From Agarophyton chilense (Eukaryota > Rhodophyta > Florideophyceae > Gracilariales > Gracilariaceae), in assembly GCA_030374765.1 (NCBI GenBank), contig JARGXX010000022.1, positions 1,364,001-1,428,000 of the forward strand: a stretch of DNA of 64,000 nt, read 5' to 3'. Within the stretch, counting starts at the first letter, position 1, and the number at the start of each line of letters is the position of its first letter. The notes beneath the pieces were generated by a model that saw only the letters and a program-made list of their open reading frames with translations, was not told where the DNA came from and ran no database searches. The translations under genes were made by a program, and so were the position numbers. Positions 1-63,586 of this stretch are shown here, piece after piece.

Positions 1-1229
1 TTTAAATTTCTCCGGGAGGCGGGCGTACTCCCGCAGGCGAACAATTCTAGAGCCAAGAACTTCTGGCTGGGAAGTTTACTTTGTGTCCCGGATGATTCTC
101 CGAAGCAATTAGTATTATTTATTATTGTATTAAAACCCTCTCTATACTTGTAAAATACTAGGATAAGTACCAAAACTATCCAGAAATGCTTGTTGGGACT
201 CTTTTGCCGCCGATTCAATGTGGCATACTTGCCTCAGCGTAGAAATGAGCATTTATGACGTACACAACAACCGGTGGTCAACTAATAGGAGCATAAAGCT
301 TTTCATTTGATTAGGCTTAACTATGGCAGGGATCGATTGTATCATTTTCCAGAACCAGGCGTATTCCCTTACACTGGAATGAGAGTAATGGAGCCGATTT
401 ATCGATTCGATATGTCCCAAGGCAAGCCGTGTGGAAAGGGAAGACTGTTTCTCTGTTCATGTTTTCCTTTGTCTACTACTATGTACCTGGTCGAAGAATG
501 TACAGCTCCCTGCCTCCAAGAAATCTGCACCTGCTTTCCAGAATTCTACGAGTCTCTGCGTGGCCGCGTCGATAGGAAGCTCAACTCTGGGTGTTTGTCA
601 GTTCTTAACTGCATGTTTTGAGCGTTACTATTTCCCTTTCACTGGTTTATGATAGGTATCAACCCGACGTGATAAATGAAGTTGTTTTGATTGACTCGAA
701 GAAAATGTTCACCTCACTGGGTGTCCATATGCGCTTAAAGCCCTAGTTACTGGTGAAAACCAAATTCATCGTTTCGTTTTTGACTAACTCCTCTGCGATG
801 GACACTTGAAAGTTGAATTTTGGCGGTATTATCGGTCTCGCTCGCCTTAAAAAGACAAAGGTAAGTCAGTCACCAGCTACATTATGTCTGCCACCTGCAC
901 GAGAAGAAAGAAAGTCAGTTTTTACGGTTTTTGGCATGTATAGATTCGATGAAAGAACTTGAAGAACTCAACATATACCCTGTACTAGAATTACACCGTG
1001 AACGACTGCCTGACATGCTACGATATTTTACCACTCTTTACTATGGCGTTCTTTGTAAGAGTATAACACCCAAAGATCAGAAAAACGTGTTTCTGAATGC
1101 TCGAACTTATGGTGAATACCCTTCCGCAGAAGGCCAAAAAGCTCCTGAAAAAGAACTTTCTTAAGTGCACAAAACGATCTGAGCTGGAATATTCAAGCCG
1201 ACTCAGTCCCTTTGAGCAACTCTAGTTTT

Positions 1230-2070
1230 ACTGGCTCCTAGTATTGAATACCATCGCTTTAATGCCCAAACTATCAAGGACGTGTATCCTGTTTCAGGCA
1301 TGGACGAGAACATCTACCAGCGCGGCACCGATATCATATTTACGGCTTGTGACGCCAATTCTGGATAGTGGTTAGTTCCCGTCAGAAAAGAAGACAACTA
1401 AAAGGCGGCCTCCGTTGCTTTTTCGGAACTTTACAGTGTCAGTTTTTAGGTGGCGTATGTTTTCCACTCATTTGGAAGTTGTTATCGTATTCCACGGTAG
1501 TCTGCACGACCATCGCACTAATGTCAGGGACATTTTAATCATGTTTCGCTATGTTTGATTTACACTCAAGCTAATAAAAAGCCAGTTGTTTTACAGATAC
1601 TGTCAATTATCTGGGTCCTATTATCTGTCCTGGAAGTATGATGATCGAAAAAGCTCTTGAAAAATCACTTCAGCTAGCGAAGATGCCCGAAACTCAAAGC
1701 GAACTTTGCTTCTTTGTAGGATCAGGGGACTTCTTTCGAAGGTTTATTCAAAACAGCGCGAACATGGCGACTTTCTTGAACGCTCATCTGCAAAAAAGGT
1801 AACCCCTAAAACTAAACCTCTTCAACTCAGCCCTGACGGATGCAGTTAGCATCCATAAGGAGGCTGTCACGTCAGCGCAAATACATCGTTGCCAAAACCT
1901 GGACTACTGTTTCCTTTGGATACAAAATTTAGTGACTACCAAGTCGGATGTGTCCTCTTTCATTCCGAGCATCATTAAAGTAACCGAACAGTACTAGAAA
2001 AGTGAAGACGGACAAGACGAAGCAAAAAGAATAGGCCAAGGCTTTCCACTCACAATTCATGAACAAACGG
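1230..2070 (+). mobile_element. Gy1 part: reverse transcriptase / RNase H remnant
   Basis: Translation on + shows a recognisable Ty3/gypsy reverse transcriptase core. The stretch TIKDVYPVSGMDENIY, followed by a DANSGYW motif, matches Gy2 (TIKDVYPIPRMDEYID and DANSGYW). Further on, a segment resembling HDHRTNVRDILIMFR matches the part after the catalytic loop. Near 1680-1790 KMPETQSEL and FFRRFIQNSANMATFLNA match the connection to RNase H (KHPKTQTELRSF and RRFVPNFADIATPLNR in Gy2). The region is clearly fossil. No functional product is expected. Confidence 0.75.
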
Positions 2071-2949: not shown

Positions 2950-4650
2950 AGGCAACAAATACCCAGTTCGTTGAATTCTTATTAACCGTCTTTGCGAATA
3001 TGAAACGGCTCTTAGCATCCGATACAACCACACGGATACACAATGCCGTAATCCAGGACACCTACAGTTCGGAAAAAAAACTTCTCAAGCCATTTGCCTG
3101 CATGCAGTGAAACCACACACCCTCTACTACACTAAGAAACTGGACGTCAGTCACAACAACATTGAAATTAATTCAACATACGAGGTAAGGTCGGAAGTTA
3201 GTTTCAAGTTTACTCTTGAAAGCGGAGCGCTTCTCAGGCGCAAAACATAAATTCATCTCTCCATGACCCTCCATCCCAAACCCATTCTAACCCCATTGCA
3301 AATCCATTAAAAGACCCATTTCTCACAGAGTAGACTTTTGGAGCTGAAGAACAGCGACAATAACACTATTTACACCCACGCAGTCGTAAAATACCATACA
3401 CACAATAACCTAATATCTTTTAACTACCTTGTCACGAGATGTGGACTTGTATTGTTCACACTCAACCACTGATATGTCTTAGAATACGGAGGAACCCCTT
3501 TTTCGATACTCGCAAATAAAAAATAGAAAGAAAAACAAACACAAAATCAGAGCCACCATGATAAACAGTACCTCAGCCCAAACATCAGTGGGGTTTTCTA
3601 TTGAAACGTCACCATAATAAAAGCACCGAACCAGTCACCTTTTAGACTATCACCACCACCCCTCTCACAACCAAGCCCCCAGCGACAACTTTTCCCCGAC
3701 CCATCATAATAAAAACTCCCACTCCAGAATCGCGATCACTAAGAACGAACGCTACACAACCCCATTCATAAACAAATGCAAACGCACATTCAAATCATGA
3801 GAAGTAACTGGCAGTTATGCGTAAACCATGCACACCCCGAATCGCTGGCCCTTATCGCACGTCATGGACTATTATCCAGAATTTTGAAGGCATTACCACC
3901 AAATGTCTACCTCACATTTAATCGCTGTGAGCACGCAAAACGCCAACCAGCAGCACACAAAATTAAACAAAACACGTACCCAATGGGGGTCTGTGGGAGT
4001 TCAGATACCTGTGGCAATCTCTACTTAAAGTCGATACATGAAAACCAGCACATGCTTCTATTAATATGAGCGACAATCGAAATCGCAATAGCTCATTTAA
4101 TCAAGAGCAAACAATATATATCGCACAACATTGGAACAGGTTTGCATCATATTCAACACACAATAAAATAACCTTTCCCGCACCTGTTAACGGGCGCGCC
4201 AATATTCGCGTTGAGTACGAATGTACACCGCGCAGCATGTTTGCCTCCGTTCAACTGGAGCTTTTTTCCCTCTCCAACAGCTGTTGCATTTGGAATTTAG
4301 CTTAGCAAAAGAATTCCGCGTCTGCGTGATCCGGTGCCACACATGGACATTCTACAAAACCGTCGGAAACAAATTCGCATTTGGAAGCGGAATCTGTAAC
4401 GTTAACCTCACCCCAGGAGGCGAACTACAGTGGAAAAGTCACTTCACTTACGCTGGATGCCCATACGAAAGCCCCACTTGGAAACGTAACGATGAAACAA
4501 TTACGACGCCATCTGCAGCCTTAAGAATACTTCACCAACCAAATTGTCACGCACGTCCGGTATCAGGAAGACGTGTCGCTGTACCGTATTCGTTGGTACG
4601 AATAAGACATCTATTGGGATGCAGGGGAGCGAATTGAGCGCCTCCTCTGA
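2950..4650 (+). mobile_element. Gy1 part: integrase C-terminal and chromodomain remnants
   Basis: This stretch has a strong A+C bias on +. Around 3845-3880 a GPYRT segment is at the place expected for the integrase GPY/F motif. At about 4538-4650 a chromodomain remnant reads YQEDVSLYRIRWYE followed by GERIERL, matching GVLQYRTRWYGYGPEWDTPE and PIEHLPRS of Gy3. The intervening ~650 bases would be the long integrase-chromodomain linker seen in Gy2 and Gy3. The chromodomain is convincing. The integrase core upstream is only weakly visible. The part is broken. Confidence 0.55.
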
Positions 4651-4859
4651 TCAAAAGAAGTCCAGAGTCACAGCCGCGCAGAAAACCCAATTTAAGCCAC
4701 CCTGCCTAATGCGAAACTTCGAAAAAGAAACCGCCACGGAGGTACTAAGAAAAAAAACACAGAATAAAAACAGTTTGAGGTGGAGAAGTTTATCGAAAAG
4801 ATTTTGTTAAGTACTTTACTAATTGCAGAGCCAAATGGACACCAAAAACCTGGACCTCG

Positions 4860-6650
4860 GTGTTTTGTAACGCTACCCTCATTCATAGGAGTTCTCCGTC
4901 CAAGGCTTGTTTCCAGAGCATATCGCATTGCGAAGATTACCCCTAAATCTTTGTGAGAACTTAATCCCACCTCGCGGAGGAATTCGACTATCATGTTTCC
5001 ATTACTTCTAGCCGTGTGACTAGAGAGAGCCACGCAGATATCTCCACTACAATACAAGGGACCCACTGGGACATATTAAACCGGCGTTTCCGGGATATTT
5101 AAACTCAAAAGGGGTATTGACAACGTCGTCGAAGTCGACGGCATCGTCGACGTCCGCATCTTTTGTATCCTTATGCACCATTAGATCTTCCCCACTACAA
5201 ATGCAGTAATGACGTTCAGCTTCTAAGAACCCGACCGGGTGATCCCCGGAAAGTCCCTCCTCGGCGTCCTAGTATTTGCGCGCTTCTGCAGCGGTGGTCT
5301 TTCGAAAGTTCTACGAGTCGAAGTACACGAAGACACCCGCGGCCGCGGTATTTGTTCCCATTTCTGGGTTGGACCCACCACCTTCTTAGTTTCGTCCATT
5401 TTTATCGATCAGTAACTGACTCCAGTCAACATTATCGACGTAATCGAGCAGATCGGTCATTTTTTCGACATTGGCCCAGCCTCTCAAGGTGACGCGAAAA
5501 TCCAACCTTTGGATATCCACCCGCAGACGCGGTTAGATGTATCATACATTGTACTGTTAATACACGTCAGTGAGGATCAAGTCCATGAGCATATTTGCCG
5601 CTGTGCGCGACCGCCCATTCAGCGGAGACCACCATCAATGATTCTGAACGGGGATCTGTCAGAAGGCATGACCTGAGGCAGGCTAACACCGGTGGAAACC
5701 CAATATAGCATCCCCGGTACGCCTACATATGACCTAACCATCCTGCGAGAGAGGCATGCCGACTGTGCCGGTGAATCGGGGCGATGCGCTGGAGCTCTGC
5801 ACTCTGAAATGGTACACAATACCTAAACCGACAGCGCCGACGCCGTTTGTAATGGATGAACCGTTGAAGGAGGTTGTATCCATTTTATGGCGGTAGATAG
5901 CCGCAATCTGTTCGCATGATCGGTCTTTCACAGAAAGTGGGTTCCTTGTGGAGGATCGGGAGACCCCTCCAAATGAAGGTTTCCTGCGCCGCGAGGGGAC
6001 CACCGTAACCCACTTCCTAGCTATTACAGTATATAACCACATCGAAACGCAGTTCTGAAGGGATCGAGAACTGGAAGGTGCCTGTCCTTACCTTTGTCTG
6101 CACGGGAGAGGCATGTGCGGGTACGGGAATTTATCCCGTGTTGCGGCGTAACTCGTGGGCAGAGATAACCACACGGCTGCCCCAGTCCCATGAAGAGGCC
6201 ATGGTCGCTGGGAAATTTCCGGGAAGGTTTTGGATCCATCCCTGTAATCGCCGAGCAATCCATCATCGAAGACGGCAGCGGGATGGAACAACAGGGCCCG
6301 ATAAATGTGGAAGGAACTTTCGTGAATACTCAGATTCCGCTTAATCAAGAAGCAGTACGAAGGCCACCCCACGCCTGGATGAGGACTGAAACAAAACACT
6401 CTGAGAATTTTTAGGCTGCAATTGATGATTACAAAACGGACCAACACCATCAGTGGAATTTTGTCCGCTCTGAGGGAGCGGTACTGGTCGGATCTTGGTT
6501 ACAATCCTGTTCGGGGTGTAAGCCGATTGGTTGAAAATCGCACTTAGAGTATGGTTCATAGCCAATATCGGCAGAAAGACAGACGATAGCTCTAACGGCT
6601 ACTACCTCGCACGAGGTAACGTCACTGTAGAGACAGGCAGTGAATATTCT
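4860..6650 (-). mobile_element. Gy1 part: remnant of the opposite-strand (antisense) gene
   Basis: On -, opposite to the gag-pol direction of Gy1, two blocks match the antisense proteins of Gy2 and Gy3. One, near 6250-6290, reads FHPAAVFDDGLLGDY (Gy2: FHPTAVRDDELIDSY). The other, near 4880-4985, reads FLREVGLSSHKDLG and RRTPMNE (Gy3: FLREVGLRPSEILG and GGPPRAEE). The first block lies about 470 bp from the LTR start (about 500 in Gy2, 400 in Gy3). The end of the second lies about 1.88 kb from it (1.94 in Gy2, 1.83 in Gy3). The preserved spacing supports true homology. The gene is broken at many places and its function is unknown. Confidence 0.7.
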
Positions 6651-20607: not shown

Positions 20608-21528
20608 TGTGGAGCAAAATCCGGCGACGGGAAGTGCTCTCAAGGTGTTCGAAGCCTTGCTCCCTGGGGGAGGCAGACTCAGAGACAGAGCCCTCCGTTC
20701 CACCCGTAGTGTGGGGTGTAACTCCCACGGGGGATTCCGGCAGTACCGACGGAGGTGAGGGGTAGAAACCGTTGGGTCGGGAATGGGTAAGGGTATCCCA
20801 AAGAATGGGGGAAAATCCGGCGAAGAGGAAAACGGGGCGAGGGTCGGGCACTAACAGGCACCGGACACGAGAACCAGAAAAGGGGCGAAACAACAAAAGA
20901 AACCCAATACAGGGGCGAAAACCTGTCCTCGAAAGGAAACACAAAAAGCACGCAACAAGTAAGCAGAACCCCCACGGGGTATCGTGCACGCAGGTCGTCT
21001 GAGCGGTCCGAAGGGGGTGGTTGCACGGAACCCAAACGTGGGCACTCTCCAAGTGGAGTCGTGTCCCTACGCAGGCGTTGCTAACCAGAGCCCGTTCCGG
21101 GTTGTAAGGCCGAAACGATGGCGACGAAGAACCTCTAAAGGTATCGAAGACCAACCTTGGTTACCATTTACTCTGAGAGTCGGACTGTCAGATCTCGTCT
21201 CCCTAAGTAGGGCCCACTAACTAAACTCTACTAATTACAGTAGTGCACACTTGATCAGGGCCATACTCGTGGAGATCTCACTGTCAGGGCCCAAAAGTCC
21301 AACGTTCTAACAAATACCGAAAATCGGTGCCGAAATTAAGCCACGTGTATCACGGGGCCAATCCAACCATGGGCCATCCGAATCTTCACTTAATAGGCGA
21401 ACTCTAACCAGAAAACTGTGCCACCTCAGCACACCTTAGAGGGGATCATAGTCATAACCCTCGGAGGGTTCAATCCTCATTCTATGAGTTGCATCTTCAA
21501 GTATCCCCTAACTGGGCGTTGCTCTACA
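20608..21528 (-). repeat. Gy2 3' LTR
   Basis: 921 bp, bounded by TG...CA. The target duplication CGGGG precedes it at 20603-20607. It abuts a purine tract (on -) at 21529-21541. It matches 31474-32371 over its whole length apart from an indel near 21230-21270. Confidence 0.95.
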
Positions 21529-21541
21529 TCTCTCCCTCCTT
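21529..21541 (-). other. Gy2 polypurine tract
   Basis: On - the sequence AAGGAGGGAGAGA lies directly before the 3' LTR start TGTAGAGC. This is the expected plus-strand primer of reverse transcription and fixes the element's direction. Confidence 0.85.
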
Positions 21542-21570
21542 AAGACGAGGAAGAACATTCCGAGCCGCGG

Positions 21571-23466
21571 GTGTCTCGCTTTCCGGTCACTATATATACT
21601 TCTCTCCCAATGGGGTCCTTCACCACTTCTGAGGATCGCCACAAAACCGGCACGTCGGTACAACTTTCTTCTACTCCTCCGACTTGCGGCGATAAGCAAC
21701 TTCTCGCAACAGCAGTCTCAACCAGTCCTCTCAAGGGAATGAACTCATACGTCCTCAACCCACTCTCCGGGCCGTTGGCCTCCGCGCCGGCGGACAACGA
21801 AGCTCCCCAGCAGGGTGGATATTTCTCCGGTTTGGATGCGGCTCCGTCAGGTACCGAACCTTCCGCCTCGGCGAGCAACCGACATCCTCAGGAGGATTTG
21901 GACATTAACGCGGTGGCGTGGAACTCCGCTCATGCGATGCCCTTGGTAGCAAACTCCAGAGGTTGTATCTCAAACGAATCCTTTCGAAGGTGGAGTCCCC
22001 TTACCGATCCGGTGATATATTCCCGCGCTCCGTGGTTCCATCCGACAGCGGTTCGCGACGATGAGCTCATCGACTCCTACGTGGAGGACGGCTTATTGCC
22101 GGGTGGCCTACCTGTCGAAATTGTACGTTCTCCCGATTGGAGGCCGCGGGTAGCCATAGAGCCTCAGTATCTATACCGCGGTCGCGGGGAGTCCCTGGAC
22201 AAGGCGCGCGCAGCGATGGCGGCTCTGGCCTACCAGCGATTGGAGAGGTCACGCTTTGACCGTCTGGTTCCCCCGGAGTACGGGTTCGATGTCGCCTATT
22301 ACCGCACGTACGGTGAGGTCTCCTACGGGGATAACCTGGCAGCCTTTCCCGAAGCCGAGTTCCGCGGACCGGGTTTTCCTCTCTGAGAAGATATGCTCCA
22401 ATGGAGTCGTCCCATTCTTCGGGCTGAATTCAGGTACCTTCAACGGCAGTTTACCCAGTATGGGTTCGATCGACGCGTGCGCTTCGAGCGCCGCTCGCGC
22501 TCCCGTTTCTGGTTCCTTGTCCCGTATCCTCACGTGGAACTGGAGTGTATCCGTAACACGGCGACGGTTGGGAGATTCGTGCCCCTTCCAGCTTGGTGGA
22601 GTAAGGTCGAGGTCCCCCGAGGGTGCTTTACTGAACTGCCCCCATGCATCTACTATATCGGGTCTCGTTTGATGCACGACCCGAACTCGGGATACTGGGC
22701 CCTCGTTGCAGCCGAGTGGGCAGCCCGCGTAGCGGCGCACCTCCTCTGGGATGCTCATGACCATTTCCGTATCTGGTATATTCCTCCGATGCTACGGACC
22801 ATCATGCGTCAGATCGACCTTGTCCCAGCGTTGGGTTCGGCCAGCAGCGTGCAGGACCTGTATCCAATCTTGGACGTGATCGACAACACCCAATGGGATC
22901 GAGTTCCAGTGGAAAATCAGCCCACAGGGGAAGGATCCGCGCGAGACAAGTCTCCTGGCCGGTACGATACGGGCTCCGGTAACTGGGTCTATTACAATCC
23001 CTTCGAAGGGGTTCGCATCAGCGCGGCGCAAGCACGGGCGCTGATTGACTCGCCTCGACCGATGCCGGTGGGACACCCGACGGGGTTCAGTTATACCGAC
23101 AATTACGATTACGAGCCTCCTGTAGACCTGGACGATCCAGCGCTGGATAAAGACATGCCAGCTCCTAGTGGAGTACACCCTGTGGAGCCATCTGCACCCT
23201 TCCAACCAGTGGGAACGACCTCAGCTGTGGCGGCGAATGCATCCGGTGGCGGTCCATCTGCTCCCCCCGGGTGGGGTGTGAACACCCTTGCGCACGCGCC
23301 GGTTGCCACTCCGCAAGCGGATAGTGTGCGACAAGGCCTCGTGAACGCAGGCATTCCGATTCCCCCGGGTATGACGGATGTGAGCCAGATGTTGGCTTTC
23401 GCCTCGGCGTACCATCAGGGTCAGAATCCCAACGGTGGGGCGGGTCCCTCCTCGGGCTTTCCGTAG
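21571..23466 (+). mobile_element. Gy2 part: antisense gene, novel protein of about 630 residues
   Basis: This gene runs opposite to gag-pol. It starts 43 bp inside the 3' LTR and ends about 450 bp before the chromodomain. In this copy it has about one break. The N-terminal ~100 residues are S/T/P-rich. The middle is rich in W, Y, P and R with blocks APWFHPTAVRDDELIDSY, YRTYGEVSYGD, RPILRAEFRY and ELPPCIYYIGS. The C-terminal ~150 residues are low complexity and end in a short conserved helix-like segment (MTDVSQMLAFA). There is no signal peptide or membrane segment, so it does not look like an envelope. It has no zinc finger or nuclease motif that I recognise. Homologues lie at the same position in Gy3 and Gy1. 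Function is unknown. Confidence 0.8.
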
Positions 23467-23866
23467 TTCCGCCTTCGGGCAATTGTAGAGTCCATAGCTT
23501 GGCGACAATAGTAAACTTCTGATATTTGCATAACTTCTTTTCTTCTTCCTTCCTGGGATCTTAACTTCTACTTCATCTTCTTCCTTCTTAGGATCTTCTT
23601 CATCTTCGTCTTCATCTTCTTCCCTTTCTAGGGTCCAATCTTCTTCTTAATCTTACTCTCCACTTCGTGGGTCTTCTTTTCCATTTTTTTATCATAAACT
23701 GTCCCGATAACCGGTGCTGTGTTCCCCGGTTAACGGCGCTAGGCCGAGGGCCAGTAGACGTTCCCTCTCAATACGTGTTCTTCGGGATACTCTCCTCAAT
23801 TCCTCTTCAGAGGTCCAACATCTTCCTCACTTCGAGGTCGCATCCACACCAGTTCCCGTGGTGGCT
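23467..23866. other. Gy2: pyrimidine-rich spacer between antisense gene and chromodomain
   Basis: Roughly 23515-23660 is nearly pure CTT/TTC on + (CTTCTTTTCTTCTTCCTTCC and similar). It lies between the two convergent coding regions, where both transcripts would need to end. No coding capacity is seen. Confidence 0.6.
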
Positions 23867-23912
23867 TACCCGACTTGGGCACGATCCAGACTTGGAGGCA
23901 AGGTTACCCGAG

Positions 23913-24066
23913 CGCGTCGGTGATAGGATAAAACCTTAGACCTCGGAAGGTGCTCAATGGGTTCCACTGTATCCTCATCAGGCGAGAATCCGTACCATCG
24001 GACTTGGTAGCGGACTTCTCCCTCGGGGGTGTAGATGTGAGGCACGATGCGATCGATAACAAATTC
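23913..24066 (-). mobile_element. Gy2 part: chromodomain
   Basis: The block EFVIDRIVPHIYTPEGEVRY, then QVRWYGFSPDEDTVEPIEHL and PRS, has the chromodomain pattern: a leading hydrophobic strand, the YxVRW core and a WEP-like VEP segment before the C-terminal helix. Chromodomains direct integration of chromoviruses to marked chromatin. Here the canonical tryptophan before EP is replaced by valine, and one of the aromatic cage positions differs. It lies over 450 codons beyond the integrase GPY/F motif. Confidence 0.85.
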
Positions 24067-24681
24067 CTGCGGGTACACTTTTCCCTGTTCGGGCTTCTCT
24101 TCCATCTTGGAACGCTCTAGTTCCCTTGAGGGTGTAAACGTAGGGTTTAGACACACCCCGGTGGGTTCTTTTCCGTGTTGCGAGCGGGTCTCAGCACTTC
24201 GTCCAAACGGCGCCGAGTGGCCTGTGGGCTACATTGTAACTTCCGTCTACGGAGTCAAAACGGCCCACTTTTGGATTCTTCTTAAAGCTGAGATCTTCCC
24301 AATAACAACGGTGTTCTTAGATTCCGTGACGGTTGAGAAACCGCGACGCGGTAGCGTCTCCAATCTCAGGGGGGTAAGACTTCAACGTCATCCCGAGCTA
24401 CGGGGACGAAGGTTGCTCCCGTGCAACGCGCCGTGCGACGGAGGCGGTTTGCGCGACAGTTGGTCGTCAGAGCCTTTTGAATGGCTCGGTGCCATTCGAC
24501 GTGTGCCACACAAATGCGCGGGCGCCCCGTGTGGGGTAACTCTTCCTTGTGCGGGAAAATGTGCATATGCAGATGTGAGGGGGCGCTTTCGACACGCGCT
24601 AGCACTCTCCTGAGCTGTCCCCGACGGGTCTCACTCATTTCTTTCCCATTCCTGAGGGTTCCAGTGTCTCCATAGGAGTTC

Positions 24682-27600
24682 CTATTCCCATTCCATAACG
24701 GAGAGCCAAATTTGGTCAACGTCGTCGTCGAGATCTTCCACGTGTGGGTCTGCTGACACAGCTCGTTCCCGAGAAAGCGGGGTTTGAGTGTGCGACACCT
24801 CAGTGTCTCGTCCGCGGCGGCGGGTGATCGTCGGCTTCGTAGGCGTTCCGGGTGCGGATTTCTCCACACGACTCTCCCTAGGCGGGGTTTCGTCATCTTT
24901 TCTGACGTCGTGCTCGGCTGGGTCGGCGGTGATGTCGCTACCCATACGCTGGGGTTGTGACTTCTCTGTCGCCGGCTCGGTTGGGCTCGCCGTCTCACTC
25001 TGAGAACTAGATTCCCTGTTAGGGCGACTGGCTGACGCCGAAACATCGTCCTGCGAAGGAATTAAGTCCTCCTCCCCCTCCTTAGGCGGAGAGCCAGGAG
25101 GCTTGATTACCTCCGGTGGGGGAGTAACTCTGTAAGAGTTCGTTGACTGGGCCCTTGAGGGAGCGGACCCAGGTTCGGGAGTATCCGAAGTTTCCGGTAG
25201 GTCGGTTAAACCACGTTCCGGGTGCGGAAGTATAACGGGGCGGGGGTTCGAATCTCCGCCTGACGGGTTAGCTTCTGTTGAATCATCCCCTGTGGAGGGC
25301 GTTGGTGCCGACAACACTTCCACATTTGGGTTGGGCGCTCGTGTGATGCGGTCCCTGGAGATCCGTTCGTGGCGGTTAGCGATATCCAATACCACCGTGT
25401 CCGGGTCTACAGAAACCACACGATAGGGTCCGTCCGCAATTGGCGAAAGCTTGTGCCTACGTTCCTTTTCAGGATTGTAGTATTCCTTTCGAAGGAAGAC
25501 GAAGTCGTTGGGCTCCACCTGAGGTAGAGGTTTGCGAACCCGATTGTCAAAGTCCTTCTTGTAGGCGCGTTGAGCTTTGTCCATTGCTTTCCGGGCTATC
25601 GGCACCATCTTCGTAAGCCACTCCTTCCAGGCTTCTCGGTACAATCCCGGTGACGGGTACGTCGACAGCGTCGGTTGAGCCCCAATGGCGACCGGCGGCG
25701 GTGTCTTCGACAGTACCAGTTCGAATGGGGATAACGATGTAACCCGATGTACCTGGGTGTTGTATGCATACGTAATAGCGTCTGTGTACAAGTCCCAATT
25801 TTTGGGGTGATCCGCAATATACGATCTCAAAGCGTTGAGTATCGTGCGGTTAAACCTCTCCACCTGGCCATTCCCCTGAGGGTGATACGTAGTAACAAAT
25901 AAATTCCTTACATCAAGGATTCGACATACATACTGAAAGAACTTTGATGCGAATTGCCCTCCGTTGTCGGATAACAACTGCACTGGCGGTCCATATACGA
26001 ACACCCAATGAGTCACGAACGCTTGCGCGACGGTAGCGGCGGTGATCCGCTTCAGCGGCACAGTTCTCGTTAGCTTAGAGAATCTGTCAGAAATGACAAG
26101 CAGATACCGATGACCTCGGGGCGTCCTGATAAACTCCCCTAGGATGTCTATGGCCACGAATTGGAGTGGAGCCCGTGACGGGAACAGCGTCAACTTCTTA
26201 GAGTGCTTCCGAAGTTTGATGTCATTCTTGGCGCAATTGGCGCAGGCCCGTCTGACGGCGTAACAATCGAATGCCATTGCCGGCCAGTAAAAGTCCCTTC
26301 TCAACGTGAGGTACAGTTTTCTTCCCCTGGGGTGGGCGCCAACCTTCACATAGTGAGTGAGGTGTAATACCCTCTGTTTTAGGGTGTGCGGCACCACTAT
26401 CCTCGGGCGAGGTCCAACGGTCCTGATTAGGTAACCCTGATCGTCGTCCTCGAAAGGTAACTGAAATCCTCGGTTGAGGCGAGCCCGAATCCGTGTACAG
26501 AATGGGTCGAGCTGTTGCTCTCGTATCATCTCCTCTGGAGAGATAGGTATAAAAGAGCCGGTCGGCGAATCCAGACTCTCGTTGACGAGTATACCGTCGC
26601 AAACATCATCCGTCAGCGGTTGAGCTCCTCCCTCGAGGTCCGATACCATAAAACATGGGATGTCATCGTCCTCGTAGGGTTCCGTTTCCGCTGTGGTTCC
26701 CAAGCGGGATAGTGCATCAGCCTGACTGTTCAGCTTTCCTTTCTTGTACAGGATCTCAAAGTCGAATTCCGACAGTCGGAGACGCCAGCGCATAAGGCGG
26801 CCCGAGGGTTCGGAGATCTCCAGGAGCCAACGCAATCATGCGTGGTCCGTATGGACTTTGAAACGAGTACCCATCAGATAGGGGCGAAGTATAGCTAAGG
26901 CCCACACAACGGCTAAACATTCTTTCTCGGAGACCGAGTAGTTCCTTTCATGGACATTCAGAGAACGTGACCAGTACCCAATAGGGTGACGTTCACCATC
27001 CTCAGAGGATTGGAACAGTGCACACCCTACTTGGTTTGCACTAGCATCGGTGTCCACTTCGTAAGGGAGCCCAGGATTGGGTAGAGCCAAGATTGGCGCT
27101 GATGTTACGACATTCACCAGTGCCGTGAAGGCAGACGCTTCCGCGTCGCCAAAAGGTTCCAGTTCAACTGGTTGTCCCTTCGTCAGGAGCCTGTTGAGGG
27201 GGGTGGCAATATCCGCAAAGTTCGGGACGAATCGGCGATACACGTTACACAGACCTTAGAAAGATCGCAACTCCGTTTGAGTTTTCGGGTGTTTTGCTTC
27301 CTTCAAGGATTTCACTCGTACTTCATCGATTGAAAGCTGTCCGAGACGGATGATATGACCCAGGTACTTAACCGAATCGGTGAAAAACTCGCACTTCTTG
27401 AGTTTCAAGGTGATTCCCGCGTCGCGGAGTATCTTCATTACGTCCCTGACGTGTTCGAGGTGGTCATCCAGGTTGTTGGAGAAGACAATAATGTCGTCTA
27501 AATACACTAGACACGTCTTCCACTTGAAAGGAGCTAACAGAATGTCTATCGCCCGTTGAAACGTTGCAGGGGCATTTGTCAACCCAAAAGGCATCCTCCG

Positions 27601-29213
27601 GAATCGGAAAAGTCCTTGATGACACACGAAAGCCGTTTTGTCTCGATCTTTTTCCCTAATAGGGACTTTCCAGTAGCCCGAATTGGCGTCGAGGGTAGAG
27701 AAAACAGTAGCGCTCCCAAGGGAGTCTATGTATTCGTCCATCCGAGGGATCGGGTACACATCCTTAATGGTTACCTCGTTAAGGCGTCTGTAATCGATGC
27801 AGAAACGCCACGATCCATCCGGTTTCGGAACTAACACCACTGGTGAGGCCCAAGCGGACTGGGCAGGTTCAATTACGCCCGCTTTAAGCATCTTCTCCAC
27901 CTGAGATTTCTCCTCTTCCCGAGCTTTCGGTCCAGCCCTGTAAGGGTGTTGGGCAATAGGCCGAGTGTTCGGTAAGAAGTCGATGCGGTGTTCTGTAATC
28001 CCAATAGTTCCAAGGGACCATCCTACGTGGGGGTAAATTCACGAAGCATGTACCTCAGCTTCTCCCGATGAGATGCGGGTACATGGTTGAGATCCCATTT
28101 CTCCAATTCCTGAACAGGATCCGTCTGGTCTGCTCCTGTGATAGGGGCCGTAACGTTCTGAGGTTTAAAGTGTTCAGCGTGTGGAGCTGCAGTCGTATGC
28201 TCACCGTCTTCCGCGATTTCGGCAGTGTCCTCCCCCTCCCTAGGGTCCGCCACACCAAGGACCTCTGCGATAGAGATCTTTGTAGGTACGACCGCATGCG
28301 GGTGTGGAAGAACAGAACCCAGGATCTGGTTTTTGACCAAATGCTGCGTTGTCTTTCCAAAGTTGGCTACCAAAACCTTGAAAGGTTTATCCGGTTCCAC
28401 GGAGACAACCCCATTCGCAAGGGCGAGTTGACGCCGCGTATACAGAGACGGGTTCGGTTGTACCACATGCACACCAATTTGCTTGGTAACAACTGTGACC
28501 CAAACCTGGGTTTCTGGCGGGATAGCCACTGACTTCGCAACCTTTACCCGTGTAGACACCGGGTCCTTCTTCACAGATTTCTGCGCGACGGGGAGAGGGA
28601 CGCGTGTTCGCGCTGCTCCCTGTAAGGGTTTACGAACGATTGGGATCGTAGACCCGTCTTCGAGTTCCACAGTTCTATTCCGAGGACGGATGGCTTCCAC
28701 GAAGCGGTCGCAAAAGTCACAACCCAGTATGACTGGTGCTGAAAGTGACTTGCATACAATAAACTCTAGCTGAACGAGATAGGAGCCTAACCTCACCATG
28801 AGGGAAATTGTACCCAGTGTCCGTAGCGGGTGGTTGTTCGCATTGGCGATATCCAAACGTGGACCGCTACGAACTTGAACCCGGAGCAGCGGGGGTAACA
28901 ATTCAACATGAATTAAGTTAGGAGCGGCTCCTGTATCCAGGACAGATATTTGACGAACCATAAACTGGTTGGACAGGCCGAAGTCGGCGAATACTTTATA
29001 ATTCCGCTTGGCCATTACCATAACTCGATCCGGAATACGGAGATTACGGGACCGTATCCACGGGCGACGAAGGACACTAAAGTATCCCGAGTTAACGTCG
29101 GTGTCAGCCGTTCTCCTTGAAAGGATTGTCACAGCTGGGGAGCGAAGCTGGAGCGCCTCGGGCGTCTTCAACTCCGGCTTAGAAGACGCCCCTCCCGCAG
29201 GGGAGACTCCCAA
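24682..29213 (-). mobile_element. Gy2 part: pol (protease, RT, RNase H, integrase, linker)
   Basis: Read on -. An aspartic protease with SVLDTGAAPNLI lies near 28.9 kb. The reverse transcriptase, about 27.3-27.9 kb, has RMPFGLTNAPATFQ and YLDDIIVFS. RNase H has VDTDASANQVG near 27.05 kb and HTDHASLRWLL near 26.85 kb. The integrase has an HHCC finger (CANCAKN, near 26.25 kb), a DDE core (AIDILGEF, LLSDNGGQF, GNGQVERFN) and GPYRVV near 25.4 kb. About 230 codons of P/S/E/T-rich linker follow, to 24.7 kb. The protease-RT-RNaseH-integrase order is Ty3/gypsy. It has several breaks and is a fossil copy. Confidence 0.9.
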
Positions 29214-29215
29214 GT

Positions 29216-31246
29216 TTAGTTTTTCGAAGCGGACCCCACCGAATTCGGTGCAGCTGCCTCGAAGGGGACCGGTTGTTCCCCGTTCGCGGGTACAAGTTCT
29301 GTATCCCTGTCAGCAAGGTGAGCTCGGAGTATCCTTTGTTCCTCATAGGACCTACTCGGGACTCGAGCTTTCTCCTCAGGGGTCAGAGCCTCGTACTGAG
29401 AGATAATTCGTGAACCCTCCCGCAGGGCAAATGGGCAGTCTGGTGCTTTGTGACCGCGGAGGTAACACAAATAGCAAATCAGCTCTGCGGGGGTCGGTTG
29501 TGGACGTGAATCCACGCGACGTGGTGCTGTATCCCTCCATCCGGGGCGAGAGAACCGAGCAGCCGTATTCGCAAAAGGTAGCGATGCGGCTGGCACCCTC
29601 CGTCCTTGGGTATAGAGCGCAGGGTCTTCATCCGTAGTCGGAGCGGATGTCGACGGCAACTCAGACGTACCCATAGATTCGGGGTTACTTCCCATGAAGT
29701 GAATGTTATCATTGACCCCCACAGGGGCAGGGCCTCCTGCGAGTGACAAAGACGAGTTACCTCCATCGGCGAGGAGTGCACGTGTCGGCCGACTCTTTCG
29801 GTTCTGGCGGGCACGGAGAGTATCCCCCTCAGCCTGGGCGTACTGAACCAGTTCCAAGTAGGTCAGCTTGCGCTTCTCTTCCCGATGTCGGGCAACCAAT
29901 GCCCTTATCGAGGGGTCCAAGCCATCCACAAACATGGAGCATCTCTCGTAGGCGGGGAATACATTCCCGCATCGGTGAAACGCTTTATTCAAGCGAGTTG
30001 AATACACCGTTTCGGTTTCCATCGGCTTCTGCCGCGTATCCCTTAATGCAAGGATTGCTTCCTGAATCGCATTTCCAGTAGCGTATGACCTCAAGAGGTA
30101 CTGCACCGCTTCGGGCCAGCACGTGACTCCCCCTTCCGAGGCTCGGGATGATCCACGGACGGAGTTGAACTGGTCTTCAGCCATCCCCTTTAAGAAATAG
30201 GGTAATGCAAGATACGCTTGGGCTTCACTCATACCGAGGATGTCAGCCTCCTGGACGAACCTCGCAAGGAAATCGAGCACCAGAATTGGGTCTGTTCCTG
30301 TGAACTCCCTCTTCTGTAGGGTGATGCTCAGGCTTTTGATGTAGTCCTTGACCTTACCCGTTCCGCGGGATGTTCGATCTCCCGAAGGGTTATCCAACCG
30401 GTAATAGCGGTACGATAGCAGCTTCCGATAGAAAGAATTCGTCGGCTTCAGCTCCCTTAATCCAAGGTGTTTCCTACCCTTCTTTCGGGTACGGATTGCC
30501 CCTTGAGAGGTGTAAATAGCCTTCGACCGAGTCGCCCGGGATGACCGGCGTCCATCTTCACTATCCGAAGATTCGGAGGACGAACTCGGTGACGAGCGAT
30601 TGGGATCGGAATCCGATAAATCCTCTTGGCGGTGAACCCTCTTCTTGGACTTGCGGCGGTCCCGTTTAGCGGAGCGGTGTTCTTCGTCTTCCGAAACGTC
30701 GGGTTTAGCCTTCGAGGCTTCTGTGTCTCCGTCCATACGGATAATGGCCTCGAGGGTGTCCAGCCGAGCTCGGAAGCGTTCCGCTTGCACGCGGTGTTCC
30801 TCCACGAGGCTCCGGTACTCCTGGATAAAGACCCCAGGGGTACCAAAGCTTTCCAAAAGGGAGTTCACATCCCTCCTCAGGGTACGAAGGTCATCGGCGA
30901 CTCCCCGCACCTGGGCGTCCTCCACCTTGCAGCGGAGGGTAGTAACCTCCTGAAGGAGCTCAACGTGAGCCGCGTTGGCGATATCGATTCGAGTCTCCAG
31001 GCGCTGTAATTCAGGGTCGGCCCGACTTCGGGGTGCTGCTGAGGGGGTCTCCACCACTGGAGCTGGGCCCACAGCCACGACCTCTCGAGGACCTGAATCC
31101 ACTGAGGGTGCTCTCCGAGTGTCCGGATCGATACCGGAATCGTTCCGATCTTCAGGAATTGAGCTCCTCGACCTAGACGGGGCCGGGGGCACTGAATTCG
31201 CTTGACGGTTCGATCCAGTCCTGGAACCACGGGTAGGCGGCGACAC
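29216..31246 (-). mobile_element. Gy2 part: gag
   Basis: An open frame of 676 codons on -. It begins with a P/S/R-rich region, then a coiled-coil-like stretch (LRTLRRDVNSLLESFG), a basic and serine-rich region, the capsid-like core (FTGTDPILVLDFLARFVQEA and DQFNSVRGSSRASEG), and a C-terminal CCHC zinc knuckle CYLCYLRGHKAPDC. This is the Ty3/gypsy gag layout of assembly domain plus nucleic-acid-binding knuckle. It looks whole. Its end is adjacent to the pol start, as usual when pol is made by frameshift or read-through. Confidence 0.9.
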
Positions 31247-31453
31247 GCTGCAGACACGACACCGACGATTCGGGGTAACGATGAAATTCGATCACGAGAT
31301 TCCCGGAGAACGGATGACGTAACACAAAACAAAAATAAAAACCAATTCCACCCTTTCCAAAGGGGACCACTACAACAAATCTTCACGACAGTGCTTCCTC
31401 TTCCAAGAGATATTCCCACACGTGGATGACCAACCGAAAAGTCCGAAAACGGA

Positions 31454-31471
31454 TTCTAAGTCGGGAGACCA
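31454..31471 (-). other. Gy2 primer-binding site
   Basis: On - the 18 nt starting TGGTCTCCCGACTT lie 2 nt after the 5' LTR. TGG pairs with the CCA end of a tRNA. The same 18 nt occur in Gy3, although the two LTRs are otherwise dissimilar. I could not name the tRNA. Confidence 0.8.
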
Positions 31472-31473
31472 CT

Positions 31474-32371
31474 TGTGGAGCAAAACCCGGCGACGGGAAG
31501 TGCTCTCAAGGTGTTCGAAGCCTTGCGCCCTGGGGGAGACAGACTCAGAGACAGAGCCCTCCGTTCCACCCGTAGTGTGGGGTGTAACTCCCACGGGGGA
31601 TTCCGGTAGTACCGACGGAGGTGAGGGGTAGAAACCGTTGGGTCGGGAATGGGCATGGGTATCCCAAAGAATGGGGGAAAATCCGGCGAAGAGGAAAAAC
31701 GGGGCGAGGATCGGGCACTGACAGGCACCGGACCCGAGAACCAGAAAAGGGGCGAAACAACAAAAGAAACCCAATACAGGGGCGAAAACCTGTCCTCGAA
31801 AGGAAACACAAAAAGCACGCAACAAGTAAGCAGAACCCCCACGGGGTATCGTGCACGCAGGTCGTCTGAGCGGTCCCAAGGGGGTGGTTGCACGGAACCC
31901 AAACGTGGGCACTCTCCAAGTGGAGTCGTGTCCCTACGCAGGCGTTGCTAACCAGAGCCCGTTCTGGGTTGTAAGGCCGAAACGATAGCGACGAAGAACC
32001 TCTAAAGGTATCGAAGACCAACCTTGGTTACCATTTTCTCTGAGCTTCGGACTGTCAGATCTCGTATTCCTAAGTAGGGCCCACTAACTAAACTCTAATA
32101 ATCCATAAACGTGGAGATCCCACTGTCAGGGCCCAAAAGTCCAACGTTCTAACAAATATCCGAAAATCGGTGCCAAAATTAAGCCACGTGTATCACGGGG
32201 CCAATCCAACCATGGGCCATCCGAATCTTCCCTTCATAGGCGAACTCTAACCAGAAAACAGTGCCACCTCAGCACACCTTAGAGGGGATCATAGTCATAA
32301 CCCTCGGAGGGTTCAACCCTCATTCTATGAGTTGCATCTTCAAGTATTCCCTAACTGGGCGTTGCTCTACA
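31474..32371 (-). repeat. Gy2 5' LTR
   Basis: 898 bp, TG...CA on +, followed by the target duplication CGGGG at 32372-32376. About 28-30 substitutions separate it from the 3' LTR by eye, plus an indel of about 20 bp. Confidence 0.95.
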
Positions 32372-53028: not shown

Positions 53029-53914
53029 TGTAGGACAATGCCCCCAAGGGGGAAAACCTACGAAGACGTCCGGATCTTCCTCTCACGAGGTAACCGGCGC
53101 GGTAGAGCCCTCCCAGGGATCGGCGCGCAATGCCGGGTGTAAGCCGGAGCCGAACCGTCGCGACGGGCGCAGGGAAGCTGAAAGAAGCCGAGAATATCCG
53201 CCGAAGCGGTGCTTGCGTATCCTCTGAGGAGGCAAAACCCACAAGAGTGACCAGCACGACAGGTGTCAGTGCGAGCCGCAAGAGCGGGAATTGCCCAATG
53301 AAGGGGAGGAAAAGGGAAGGAAAAGGGAAGGAAAAGGGAAGGAAAATGGGAACGGAGGCAGGAGGGCGAGGTTGACCACGAGTCGCAAGAGGGGACTCGG
53401 GAATAGCCGGCACTGCCGGGTGTAGCAAACCGTATACACGGGCGGAACCACGAAAGTGGGAATAGATACCCAACACACGAAGGCTGCTTGAACGTCCAAG
53501 GGGGTTGGGAAGCCGTGCACCACGGGAAATCCCTCCGTAAGGATTTGTATATCCGCGCAGGCGGTTCGACCCAGAGCCAAGATCTGGAAGACCAAGATCA
53601 CCCTTGTTGGGGAGACTTTACTGGACCGGCGGCCGCTAGGCCGGCGGCCTAAGTACTGTAGTCACCGTAGAATAGAATAAATAAAGTCTATCCTAAATAG
53701 CTAAATGTCCGTCTAACAAAGGGGCCAATCTGGCGGCCACGTGTCGCGCGGGCGCTGCGGCCACGTGTATGGCACCCGGTCCCGCCGGTGCATCACCGGC
53801 GTTCCGGCCATCGCCGTGAAAACGGATTACTCCTACTCATAACGAGGTTGCACGCCGGAGGCTTCGGAAAAAACTTAAGTTCGCATAAACCTCCCTGGAG
53901 GACGTTGCTCTTCA
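53029..53914 (-). repeat. Gy3 3' LTR
   Basis: 886 bp, starting TGTAGGACAATG and ending GCTCTTCA on +. It is preceded by ACAAC (53024-53028), the candidate target duplication. The partner lies outside the window. It contains an 11-bp repeat GGAAAAGGGAA (three full copies here, two in the 5' LTR). Confidence 0.9.
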
Positions 53915-53927
53915 TATCCCCCCCCCC
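53915..53927 (-). other. Gy3 polypurine tract
   Basis: On - a run of G's ending GATA directly precedes the LTR start TGAAGAGC. This fixes the direction of the element. Confidence 0.8.
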
Positions 53928-53963
53928 TTAAGACAGGGCGAACACCTCGAAGAGGAAGTCGGC

Positions 53964-55739
53964 ATGGCAGCTCTTCATGATAAGAGCGCGTTCGACACCG
54001 GGTCTCCGGAAACCAACACACCTTCACCAAGGATCCCACGCAAGCTCTTCGCATCCGATTCCAACCACAGCAGACCAACACTCACCATGTCCAACGCCGA
54101 CCGTCATAACACATCCGCGACTCCCGCCCTTAGCGGTTCCACCGGCTTCCGGTCCGCGCCCCACCCTGGGGATGTTACCAACCTCGCGTACGAAGACCGC
54201 CGTATTGGCACCCGCTTTCGCGGACAGGCGGACCCACCGCAGTGGCCGACCTACGACGCCCTTGTGGGTGCAAATCCGAGAACTCGGCATGGCTCCGCGA
54301 TGTTGCGGTATGCGCCTTGGTGTCACCCATTGGCTGTCCGCGACGAGGATTTGATCCACTCCTACACCGATAATTCGGAGATGCTCCTGGGCGACCTGCC
54401 CGGTGTAGTGACCATGTCCTGGGATTGGCGTAATCGTATCGCCATCCCGGCACACCACATACTCCGCCGACGCGGTGAGTCCTCTGCGGAGGCTCAGGCC
54501 GCGCTTGTGCGGATCGCTTATCTCAGGCACCATCGGGCGCCTTTCGAGTTCCCGATACCGCCAGAGGTCGAATTCGACGTCCACCTTTACCGCACTCGCG
54601 GGGAAATGTCGTACTGTGACCGTCTTAACAGATTGGAAACCCTCGCTTGGAGGGGCACACCGATCGCTCGGCGAGAAGCCCTTTGCTGGGTACGACCGAT
54701 TCTTCGGGCAGAGTTCCGCTACCAACCGCGGCAGTCGCGCTCGAACTTCCTTCAGAACTTCATCCGCGATGAGCGGCGTTGGCGGGCCCGGACCGGGTAT
54801 TTCGTACCGTACCAGAACACGGAGATTGAGCGCATCGCGCCTGCTCACCGACGTGGTCGGTACGTCAGTCTCCCAGACCGGTGGTCCTCCTCGGAGGCGT
54901 ACTGGGCTTGCTTCATTGAGCTGCCCCCAGTCTTCACCTATGTAGGGTCGTCGTTCTTGAGCGATCCCCAGTCGGGGTGGTGGTCCGTCGTGGTAAGCGA
55001 ATGGGCCGTCCGCACTGCGGCTTTTATCTTCGCTGAGGCGTACGACCAATACCGATTGTGGTACGTGCCACCGCGTGTGCGGGCTGCGATCCGCCGTTTG
55101 GACATGCGCATCCCCCTAGGGGGCGAGGCGAACGAAGAAGAGATGCTGGGCCTCCTCGACTTTGTGGAGGGGGTCCAGTGAGATGAGGTCCCGCTGGAGA
55201 ACTCCCAACGCATTCAACCGCGTCGCGGGTCTGGCTCCGGATTAGGGAAGAATACCGCGCTAGCGGGGGATTTCATCTACTTCGACCCCTGGGAGTACCA
55301 CGAGATCAGCTGCGAGAAAGCGGAAGCCAACCGGCATGCGCCGCGTGGAGTCCCGGCCAACCACCCGCGAGGGTATGTCGACTCGAGCGACTATTACCGC
55401 GGCTATGCCGATGGTGACCCGATGGTCGACAACGAACCGGAGGATTCGGGTTACGCTCCGACGGAGGATGACGAGTCCGGCGAGGCCGGTGAGGAGTCCG
55501 TTGAATACGGTGGTGCAGCTCCATCCGGGGCTGCTGATGCCGTGCGAACGGATTCCTATCCGACTCCATCAGTGGCGGGCCCGCCCGCAACTGCCGCTGG
55601 CGCGGAGCGGGGCGAGGTCATCGCGCGCTTCCTTCGGGAGGTGGGGCTTCGCCCTTCCGAGATCTTGGGTGATGTGGCCGCCATGCGGGATGCCTTAGCC
55701 AACCGCCTGGGCGGGGGTCCACCTCGTGCGGAGGAATGA
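53964..55739 (+). mobile_element. Gy3 part: antisense gene, novel protein of about 590 residues
   Basis: Opposite to gag-pol, it starts 50 bp inside the 3' LTR and has about one or two breaks in this copy. The N-terminal ~110 residues are S/T/P-rich. The core carries APWCHPLAVRDEDLIHSY, WDWRNRIAIPAHHILRRRGE, YRTRGEMSYCDRL, RPILRAEFRYQPRQ and ELPPVFTYVGS. It then has EWAVRTAA and YRLWYVPPRVRAAIRRLDM. The tail is acidic and G/E/A-rich and ends in FLREVGLRPSEILGDVAAMR and GGGPPRAEE. In the 66-residue block from CFIELPP to RRLDM, 31 positions are identical to Gy2. There is no signal peptide, membrane helix or known enzymatic motif. Function is unknown. Confidence 0.82.
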
Positions 55740-56089: not shown

Positions 56090-56300
56090 TTACCAGCGTG
56101 GCTTGGAGTGCGGTCCCCGCAAGGCGGTGGTATGGCATTACCGCGGAGCGCGGGAGGTGCTCGATGGGCTCCGGGGTGTCCCACTCCGGCCCGTATCCGT
56201 ACCAGCGGGTCCGGTACTGGAGCACCCCGTGCTCATCGTAGCTATCTCTGACGATTCGGTCGAGGGCGTACTCCTGCACGTAAACTTGCCAGCCTTGCCG
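56090..56300 (-). mobile_element. Gy3 part: chromodomain
   Basis: VYVQEYALDRIVRDSYDEHG, VLQYRTRWYGYGPEWDTPEP and IEHLPRS form a chromodomain pattern. It is closely similar to that of Gy2 and nearer to the canonical W..PEPIEHL form. It sits at the C-terminal end of the pol reading direction. Confidence 0.87.
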
Positions 56301-59300: not shown

Positions 59301-61316
59301 TAGCGCGTTTAGCGGAGCGGCGATATCCGAGAAACTCGGTATAAACCGTCGATGGACGTTGACCAGACCTAAAAAGGATCGGAGCTCCGTTTGAGTACGG
59401 GGCTTCTTTGCCTCACAGAGGGACTTGATACGAACTTGTTCGATCATTAACCGTCCTGGACGGATGACGTGCCCGAGATACCTCACCGTGTCGGTGAAGA
59501 ACTCGCACCTCCTCAACTTGAGGGTTATTCCTGCGTCTCGCAGTACGGTCATCACGTCCCGCACGTGGGTCAGGTGATCGTCCAGGTTTCTGGAAAAGAC
59601 AATGATGTCGTCCAAGTAGACGAGGCACGTGCGCCACTTGAAACGCGACATCAGTATGTCTATTGCCCTTTGAAAGGTGGCCGGTGCATTGGTTAAACCA
59701 AACGGCATCCGCTTGAAGCGGTAGGAACCCGAGTGGCAAACAAACGCGGTTTTGTCTCGGTCCTCTTCCCGGACTGGGACTTGCCAGTAGCCCCAGCTAG
59801 CATCCAGAGCCGTAAACACGGTAGCGTCTCGGAGCGAGTCTATACACTCGTCCATGCGCGGAATCGGGTACGTGTCCGTCACGGTGACGGCATTGAGGCG
59901 GCGGTAGTCAACGCAAAACCGCCACGTGCCGTCAGCCTTGAGGGCCAGCACCACCGGTGAAGCCCAAGGAGATTGGGCGGGCTCGATGACTCCAGAACGG
60001 AGCATCTTGTCCACCTGAAATTCTTCCTCCTCCCGAGCTTTCGGTCCCGCCCTGTAAGGGGGTTGTGCAACCGGACTTGCGTCCGGTAGCAAGTCTATCC
60101 GATGTTCGGTTGTATTGATCTCACCCAGTGAGCCGTCCCACATTGTGGTAAACTCGCGTAGCATTCCGCGTAAGCGGTCCCGGTGTGAGACCGGTACATG
60201 ACTCAGGTCCAGGTCCTCGATGGCCTTGATCGGGTCTATCTTATCGTAGCTCGTAGGCTGTGCCCTTATGTCAGGTGTGGGAACCGACGAGGTCGGAAAT
60301 GCATCCGTCTTGACGGTTTTATCGAGCGCCAACTGCTGTGCCTCCCCGGAGGTTTCTGCACCGGATATCGGGAGACCATCCTTGGTAGAGGGAGTTATTC
60401 CGAGTACTTCGGCAGCCGTCACCTTTGTAGGGAGCATCGCGAGCGGGTGCGGCGTCACAGACCCAATGACTTGGTTCTTTGCCAGCGTCTGGGGAGCCTT
60501 TCCAAGATTAGCAACCAACATCCTGAATGGGGAATTCGGCGTGACTTGCACGATTCTGTTCGCAACGGTTAACTGAAATTTCTCGTACAACGAGGGCAAG
60601 GGTTGAACAACCCGAAGACCGTGTTGACGGGAATTGACTGAAACCATTACCTGGCTCTCCGGGGGTATGGTGACTGACGAGGCAACGCGTAGCTTCGTAG
60701 AATCCCGGTTCGCCGGTGTGGGTTCCTGCGCAGCAGGTAGAGGAACATGTTTCCTCGATGCCCGCTTCAGCGGTTGACGAACAATGGGGACGGTCGATCC
60801 GTCCTCAAGTTCCACCTGCTTAAGGCGTGGGCGGATGGCGTCGACAAACCTGTCGCAGTACTCACATCCCAGTATAACTGGCGCAGCCAGCGAGCGGCAC
60901 ACAATAAAAGATAGTTTAACCACCATCCGCCCTAGCCTGACGACCAGCTCGATCACACCAACCGTTTTCAACGGGTTTTTATTGGCGTCTGAGACGTTGG
61001 GTACCGTTTCAGAACGGATGAGTGACCGCAATGGCGTGGGTAAAACCGATTCCACAATAAAGTTCGGCCCAGCACCTGTATCCAGGACAGTGAGATATCT
61101 CACCATAAACGGCGTGTGCAGACCAAGGTCAGCGTAAACCTTGTAGTTACGCTTGGCCATTACCAAGACTCTATCCGGGATCCGGTTATTTCTAATCCGT
61201 ATCCACGGTCGACGCAAAACACCGAGGTGTTTAGAGTCCGCGTCTGCGGTGTCCTTCCTTGTCAGGATTTTCACCGGGGAGCGAGGCATCGGCGCCTCGG
61301 GCGTCGTCAGCCTCAA
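56300..61316 (-). mobile_element. Gy3 part: pol (protease, RT, RNase H, integrase, linker)
   Basis: On -. The protease has TVLDTGAGPNF near 61.06 kb. The RT has RMPFGLTNAPATFQ and YLDDIIVFS near 59.6-59.7 kb. RNase H has SIDTDASDHQMG near 59.15 kb and HTDHASLRWLL near 58.95 kb. The integrase has a zinc finger FCTQCAKNRVK near 58.3 kb, AIDILGPLL, EVLSNNGKQFA, TNGQVERFN, and GPFRVV near 57.52 kb. Then about 400 codons of P/S/T/R-rich linker run to the chromodomain. The second integrase catalytic motif reads SNNG where SDNG is usual. Few breaks overall. Confidence 0.9.
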
Positions 61317-61351
61317 CTCTGAGGACGCCTCTCCCGAAGGGGAGACTCCCT

Positions 61352-63583: not shown

Positions 63584-63586
63584 ATT

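Follow-up and report, generated by a model that had tools for sequence, protein, structure and literature searches.

Chromodomain-bearing Ty3/gypsy retrotransposons of the red alga Agarophyton chilense carry, opposite to gag-pol and between the chromodomain and the 3' LTR, an antisense gene that is both real and under selection. It likely plays an accessory role within the element, and we hold with considerable confidence the combined reading that covers both points, namely that the antisense frame is a real accessory gene of a red-algal lineage of such elements. The layout is not new, since antisense extra ORFs are known in plants and in Botrytis; the protein family and the host group do appear to be new, as far as our searches reach. 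The analysis concerns a 64,000-nucleotide stretch of the A. chilense genome (the window), in which a first-pass annotation had described the gene in two elements, Gy2 and Gy3, and in a relic, Gy1. Homologous frames in this position and orientation are present in all three, and a fourth family, Gy4, can now be added.

LTRs, gag, RT and integrase follow the Ty3 order in the window elements (Table 1). The two LTRs of Gy2 (20608-21528 and 31474-32371) are 94.15% identical, with 27 mismatches and 3 gap openings; Gy3 starts at 53029 and its 5' LTR extends past the end of the window. Calculated from the coordinates, the distance from the inner LTR edge to the end of the antisense ORF is 1.94 kb in Gy2 and 1.83 kb in Gy3, as had been claimed. 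The frames of the two window copies and their homology were likewise borne out, but neither copy is intact, as in-frame stops split that of Gy2 at 22384-22386 into 280 and 359 codons and that of Gy3 at 55179-55181 into 430 and 185 codons.

Table 1. Features of the antisense genes and their elements in the window.
Feature	Position	Strand	Remarks
Gy1 pol relic	248..1966	+	
Gy1 integrase scrap	4184..4294	+	tblastn E 0.003
Gy1 chromodomain scrap	4525..4716	+	tblastn E 7e-4
Gy1 antisense gene relic	4878..6366	-	frameshifted
Gy2 chromodomain Ty3/gypsy element	20608..32371	-	LTR pair and direct repeat
CGGGG direct repeat flanking Gy2	20603-20607, 32372-32376		read from sequence
Gy2 3' LTR	20608..21528	-	directly upstream of antisense gene
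Gy2 polypurine tract	21529..21541	-	purine-rich on gag-pol strand, read from sequence
Gy2 antisense gene	frame 21544..23466	+	first ATG 21610
AGTAAA (variant signal)	23510..23515	+	43 nt past Gy2 antisense stop codon
Gy2 chromodomain	23869..24081	-	beside 3' end of antisense ORF; Pfam PF00385 E 3.2e-8
Gy2 integrase stretch	24682..26835	-	rve, Integrase_H2C2
Gy2 reverse transcriptase stretch	27256..28038	-	RVT_1 E 4.7e-41
Gy2 protease-bearing stretch	28023..29309	-	gag-asp_proteas E 0.021, below cut-off; 53% identical to Gy3
Gy2 gag	29216..31291	-	CCHC knuckle read in translation; no Pfam match
Gy3 3' LTR	53029..53914	-	inner edge read from sequence
Gy3 antisense gene	frame 53889..55739	+	first ATG 53964
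AATAAA	55799..55804	+	59 nt past Gy3 antisense stop codon
Gy3 chromodomain	56148..56267	-	Pfam E 0.0041, below cut-off; 52% identical to Gy2 chromodomain stretch
Gy3 pol (RT, RNase H, integrase)	57711..61616	-	in-frame stop in window copy
Gy3 gag	61352..63640	-	similarity to Gy2 gag; no accepted Pfam match; in-frame stop in window copy

A profile of 18 homologues matches the Gy1 relic on the minus strand at 6253-5594 (E 9.1e-44) and again at 5613-5080 (E 7.9e-27), and since pol, the integrase scrap, the chromodomain scrap and the antisense gene follow one another in order, the layout holds in Gy1 too. The antisense frame of Gy4 (L039, L040 and L063) shows tblastn identities of 33-36% to its Gy2 and Gy3 counterparts and 39-40% identity over the core, and RT identity between Gy4 and Gy2 is 64%; gag-pol and a chromodomain (E 6.9e-9) adjoin this frame on the opposite strand. 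The window also holds a LINE-type element (36577-40665, minus strand), whose 1362-aa open frame has an RT match together with weaker endonuclease and RNase H matches.

Throughout the genome (79.8 Mb, 135 contigs), diagnostic 30-mers with at most 3 mismatches marked 242 Gy2-type and 236 Gy3-type places, and reversed control 30-mer patterns marked none. Elsewhere in the genome, other copies have an uninterrupted frame of 640 aa (Gy2 type) or of up to 679 aa (Gy3 type). Among the best-scoring matches listed, a hand count gave 54 stop-free and 23 stop-bearing matches of 77 for the Gy2 type, to which these were assigned by frame lengths and places, and 71 stop-free and 27 stop-bearing matches of 98 for the Gy3 type, with both counts covering the matched stretch alone, which is shorter than the whole antisense frame. 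On reference columns, 7 of 32 Gy2 copies and 6 of 29 Gy3 copies are full length, gapless and stop-free. Some Gy3-type antisense genes are evenly spaced, with those at 3138139, 3147336 and 3156533 on C68 recurring every 9197 bases and those at 295835 and 305084 on C77 lying 9249 bases apart, which suggests tandem elements with common LTRs.

The antisense frame is under purifying selection. Thirty-three columns are invariant among 7 antisense protein sequences, and this conservation, together with the selection in the antisense frame, places the frame beyond chance. Over the antisense core (NG86, 296-300 codons), dN/dS was 0.275 for Gy2-Gy3, 0.261 for Gy2-Gy4 and 0.260 for Gy3-Gy4, whereas the gag-pol-strand frame lying codon on codon with it gave 1.16, 1.14 and 1.40, respectively; such between-family ratios are rough, as dS is saturated (2.0-2.6). 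The check proposed at the outset, which called for a dN/dS well under 1 in the antisense but not in the opposite frames, thus gave the expected outcome for the codon-on-codon frame, with a within-family signal that is clear only in Gy3. Differences between the Gy2 and Gy3 cores number 131, 95 and 197 at codon positions 1, 2 and 3. Among the Gy3 core variants common to at least 3 of 29 copies, 15 are synonymous, 6 nonsynonymous and 1 a stop when read in the antisense frame, and the same variants read in the sense frame are 4 synonymous and 18 nonsynonymous. The signal is weak for Gy2, where shared core variants (at least 3 of 32 copies) are 8 synonymous and 7 nonsynonymous in antisense and 6 and 9 in sense. 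Over the whole antisense frame, the shared-variant ratio (0.53 in Gy2, 0.52 in Gy3) is only about 0.5, so the constraint lies mainly in the core, and constraint is weaker on variants confined to a single copy (0.51-0.67), as would be expected once an element has inserted. The cores of Gy2 and Gy3 are 45% identical over 300 codons versus 76% for RT, in agreement with the three-quarters previously estimated for the latter; the corresponding dN/dS of RT is 0.06. Gag (47% identity) and the protease stretch (53%) have diverged about as much as the antisense core. The low dN/dS in the antisense frame supports the original proposal that an antisense accessory gene has been retained during the divergence of the elements.

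Protein searches (5.8 billion proteins, about 8000 candidates scored in each) gave named relatives in Gracilariopsis chorda and A. chilense, all relatives being without Pfam domains, and the homologues beyond this genome are known as proteins alone. In a midpoint-rooted tree of 14 proteins, in which 5 of 11 inner branches are weak, Gy3 grouped with G. chorda 03215 and P0006 (support 100/100), Gy2 with P0014 and P0017 (100/99), and Gy4 with P0008, P0009, P0022 and P0023 (100/99). If inheritance has been vertical, the Gy2-Gy3 split would be older than the split between Gracilaria and Gracilariopsis.

The encoded protein appears to be soluble and poor in lysine; its core, some 310 residues long, is predicted to be mostly helical, and its tail is acidic. 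The first-pass annotation had not recognised it, which accords with the lack of an accepted Pfam domain in 18 members scanned to E 0.5 (two stray families, E 0.15-0.16; a separate scan of the Gy2 head gave a stray DUF3905 match, E 0.11) and of PDB sequence relatives up to E 1. At E 0.5, the Pfam matches of the 18 members also included no bZIP and, as a sequence-level test, no PF04195 (TRP28), and Rfam gave no match at gathering scores within the window. AlphaFold models of two proteins share a disordered head and a similar helix order, compared by order without superposition. In P0003, the mostly helical core spans residues 120-430 or so, with ten-residue pLDDT means mostly of 75-94 and a dip to 49; in P0014, it spans about 80-450 with lower means (41-92), and a short C-terminal helix pair is added. 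These are the best of five models each, the rest having mean pLDDT values of 45-53 (P0003) and 51-57 (P0014). VIA-align comparison of the predicted whole-protein models with solved structures returned no credible match, a result that does not in itself show a new fold. None of 14 proteins has a transmembrane segment (highest 19-residue hydropathy mean, 1.45), and an env-like identity was rejected on this ground and on the antisense orientation; a gag identity was rejected as well, and a gag with a CCHC knuckle is encoded on the sense strand. Net charge is -3 to -22 for the C-terminal tail in members with a tail and ranges from -10 to +12 for the core, and given this variation of the core, nucleic-acid binding is not evident. 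A simple nuclear-localisation-like motif occurs in 1 of 14 proteins tested (P0008), and no DNA-binding domain was found in the antisense proteins. Unlike the gag and pol proteins of the same elements, the antisense proteins contain 0-3.1% lysine and about 7-14% arginine. K/(K+R) ranges from 0.00 to 0.26 across 18 antisense rows, including two fragments from window copies, versus 0.22-0.51 in 11 gag/pol stretches, although the ranges touch, as P0008 (0.22) and P0023 (0.26) come up to the bottom of the gag range. The Asn AAY and Glu GAR codons are used alike in three antisense and eight sense frames, so the scarcity of lysine is not a simple avoidance of A-rich codons; AGR arginine codons are somewhat low in the antisense genes.

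Several features bear upon the expression of the gene. In both Gy2 and Gy3, the first antisense ATG stands 50-80 nt from the LTR edge, which points to a likely promoter in or beside the 3' LTR, from which the antisense gene would be transcribed as its own mRNA. A TATA-like stretch, CTATATATAC (window 21590-21599, plus strand), ends 10 bases ahead of the first ATG of the Gy2 antisense gene; none was noted by eye near the Gy3 start. Downstream, AATAAA, a poly(A)-type signal, lies 58-59 nt past the antisense stop in 26 of 29 Gy3 copies, window copy included, and 52 nt past it in all 3 Gy4 copies, for which the chance of an occurrence in a shuffled 150-nt stretch is about 0.014 and 0.012, respectively, with copies within a family not being independent owing to their common descent. 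In Gy2, AATAAA is absent within 150 nt of the stop in all 32 copies, and AGTAAA is found at 43 nt in 31 of these. The product would presumably number about 600-680 residues and be soluble; a disordered head would lead into the arginine-rich, lysine-poor, helical core, and an acidic Pro/Ala/Gly-rich tail would be followed by the short terminal helix pair.

As for what such a protein might do, the most likely single mechanism, albeit one that we would put at somewhat under an even chance, is that of a trans-acting nuclear factor, which would bind nucleic acid or chromatin and regulate how its own element family is transcribed, silenced or integrated, by analogy with what has been suggested for the antisense genes of plants. 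The protein might instead be a component of the particle or of the pre-integration complex, i.e. an additional structural protein or a chaperone provided in trans, rather than a gene regulator. We consider this unlikely, though worth serious attention: a soluble, helical, arginine-rich protein encoded at hundreds of places and diverging at much the same rate as gag and the protease stretch would suit such a function, but the sense strand already provides a gag with a CCHC knuckle, and expression from the opposite strand would presumably uncouple the protein from gag-pol stoichiometry. Somewhat less likely again is a protein that counters host defence, whether silencing or protein turnover, in which case a scarcity of lysine would make it hard to ubiquitinate. 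The low K/(K+R) relative to gag and pol and the even use of AAY and GAR codons both agree with this, yet the touching K/(K+R) ranges and the somewhat low AGR codons count against it, and lysine could also be scarce because of GC-rich codon choice or arginine-based nucleic-acid binding.

Two further explanations concern the gene itself and its source rather than its function. Were an antisense RNA or a sense-strand frame the conserved entity, the antisense ORF would be a by-product, and antisense RNA could indeed pair with genomic RNA as dsRNA. In many Gy3 copies, the gag-pol strand is itself open for 411 codons across the antisense gene (e.g. L013:1618-2850, minus strand), a length that few codon shuffles reach (P 0.011). 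However, the Gy2 counterpart of this sense frame has 180 codons; read in this frame, dN/dS exceeds 1 and the shared Gy3 variants are nonsynonymous in 18 of 22 cases, and substitutions favour the antisense third position, which corresponds to its own codon position 1. Over a 130-codon block, the second sense frame shows 40% identity with 2-6 stops per sequence and the third 16-23% identity with 1-4 stops. Sense-strand coding was accordingly rejected as the cause of the conservation, as the 411-codon frame is without a selection signal, and the by-product explanation as a whole is very improbable. Recent capture of a host or viral gene by a single element, with subsequent amplification, is also improbable, though less extremely so. 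Captured genes are known in LTR elements generally (PMC7264820), but the antisense gene occupies the same place in four families, and any capture must be old if vertical inheritance puts the Gy2-Gy3 split before that of Gracilaria and Gracilariopsis. No clearly non-element relative was present among the roughly 8000 candidates scored per protein search, and a viral source was rejected because none of 13 pattern matches in IMG/VR was a relative.

The layout had been likened to that of HBZ, an antisense gene in the 3' part of HTLV-1 whose product bears an acidic segment. The algal protein resembles HBZ in its antisense orientation, its location towards the 3' end of an LTR element and its acidic segment, but it has no bZIP or other accepted Pfam domain and belongs to a retrotransposon. 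HBZ is not the best model, however, as nearer precedents exist in the antisense extra ORFs of the plant elements Grande, RIRE2 and Retand and of Boty from Botrytis. The plant aORF-3R of Grande, RIRE2, Retand and PvRetro13 are placed in antisense between pol and the 3' LTR, occur in most copies and are in some cases conserved between species (PMC7264820, PMC11963269). The algal gene is alike in being antisense to gag-pol, between pol and the 3' LTR (in Gy1-Gy4), present at many genomic places, and conserved at the protein level between element families and species. For Grande, antisense transcription and nuclear localisation are reported, and for Retand, described as a non-chromovirus, a TRP28 (PF04195) domain in the antisense ORFs of 97% of clusters, with DNA binding proposed (PMC11963269); unlike Retand, the algal elements have a chromodomain, and the scan for PF04195 in their protein gave no match. 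The antisense extra gene brtn of Botrytis Boty/BcGypsy1 (PMC7264820, PMC8365987) is comparable, by description, as an antisense gene of a gypsy-type element outside plants. Accessory proteins are also mentioned in algal DNA transposons (PMC12477816), and a term search of PMC12502185 gave no occurrence of LTR, gypsy or retrotransposon. Our search of the open literature, outside which most subscription papers fall, returned nothing on antisense genes carried by retrotransposons of red algae.

Within the literature covered here, antisense accessory genes of LTR retrotransposons have so far been described in flowering plants and one fungal genus. A conserved red-algal case without sequence relation to TRP28 suggests that the arrangement either arose repeatedly or is very old, and that an antisense gene is useful to such elements. 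In its fullest form, the nuclear-factor proposal would have red-algal Ty3 elements expressing in antisense, since before the Gracilaria-Gracilariopsis split, a protein of new fold whose scarcity of lysine has been selected for and which works in trans upon the host nucleus, e.g. in anti-silencing or self-regulation. We regard this full combination as unlikely, but if true, it would constitute a further independent origin of an antisense LTR-element regulator beside those of plants, a fungus and retroviruses. With hundreds of places in one 80 Mb genome, a clear signature of selection and a modelled core, this large family makes such proposals directly testable. The family also indicates that some red-algal proteins annotated as hypothetical are homologues of a retrotransposon protein.
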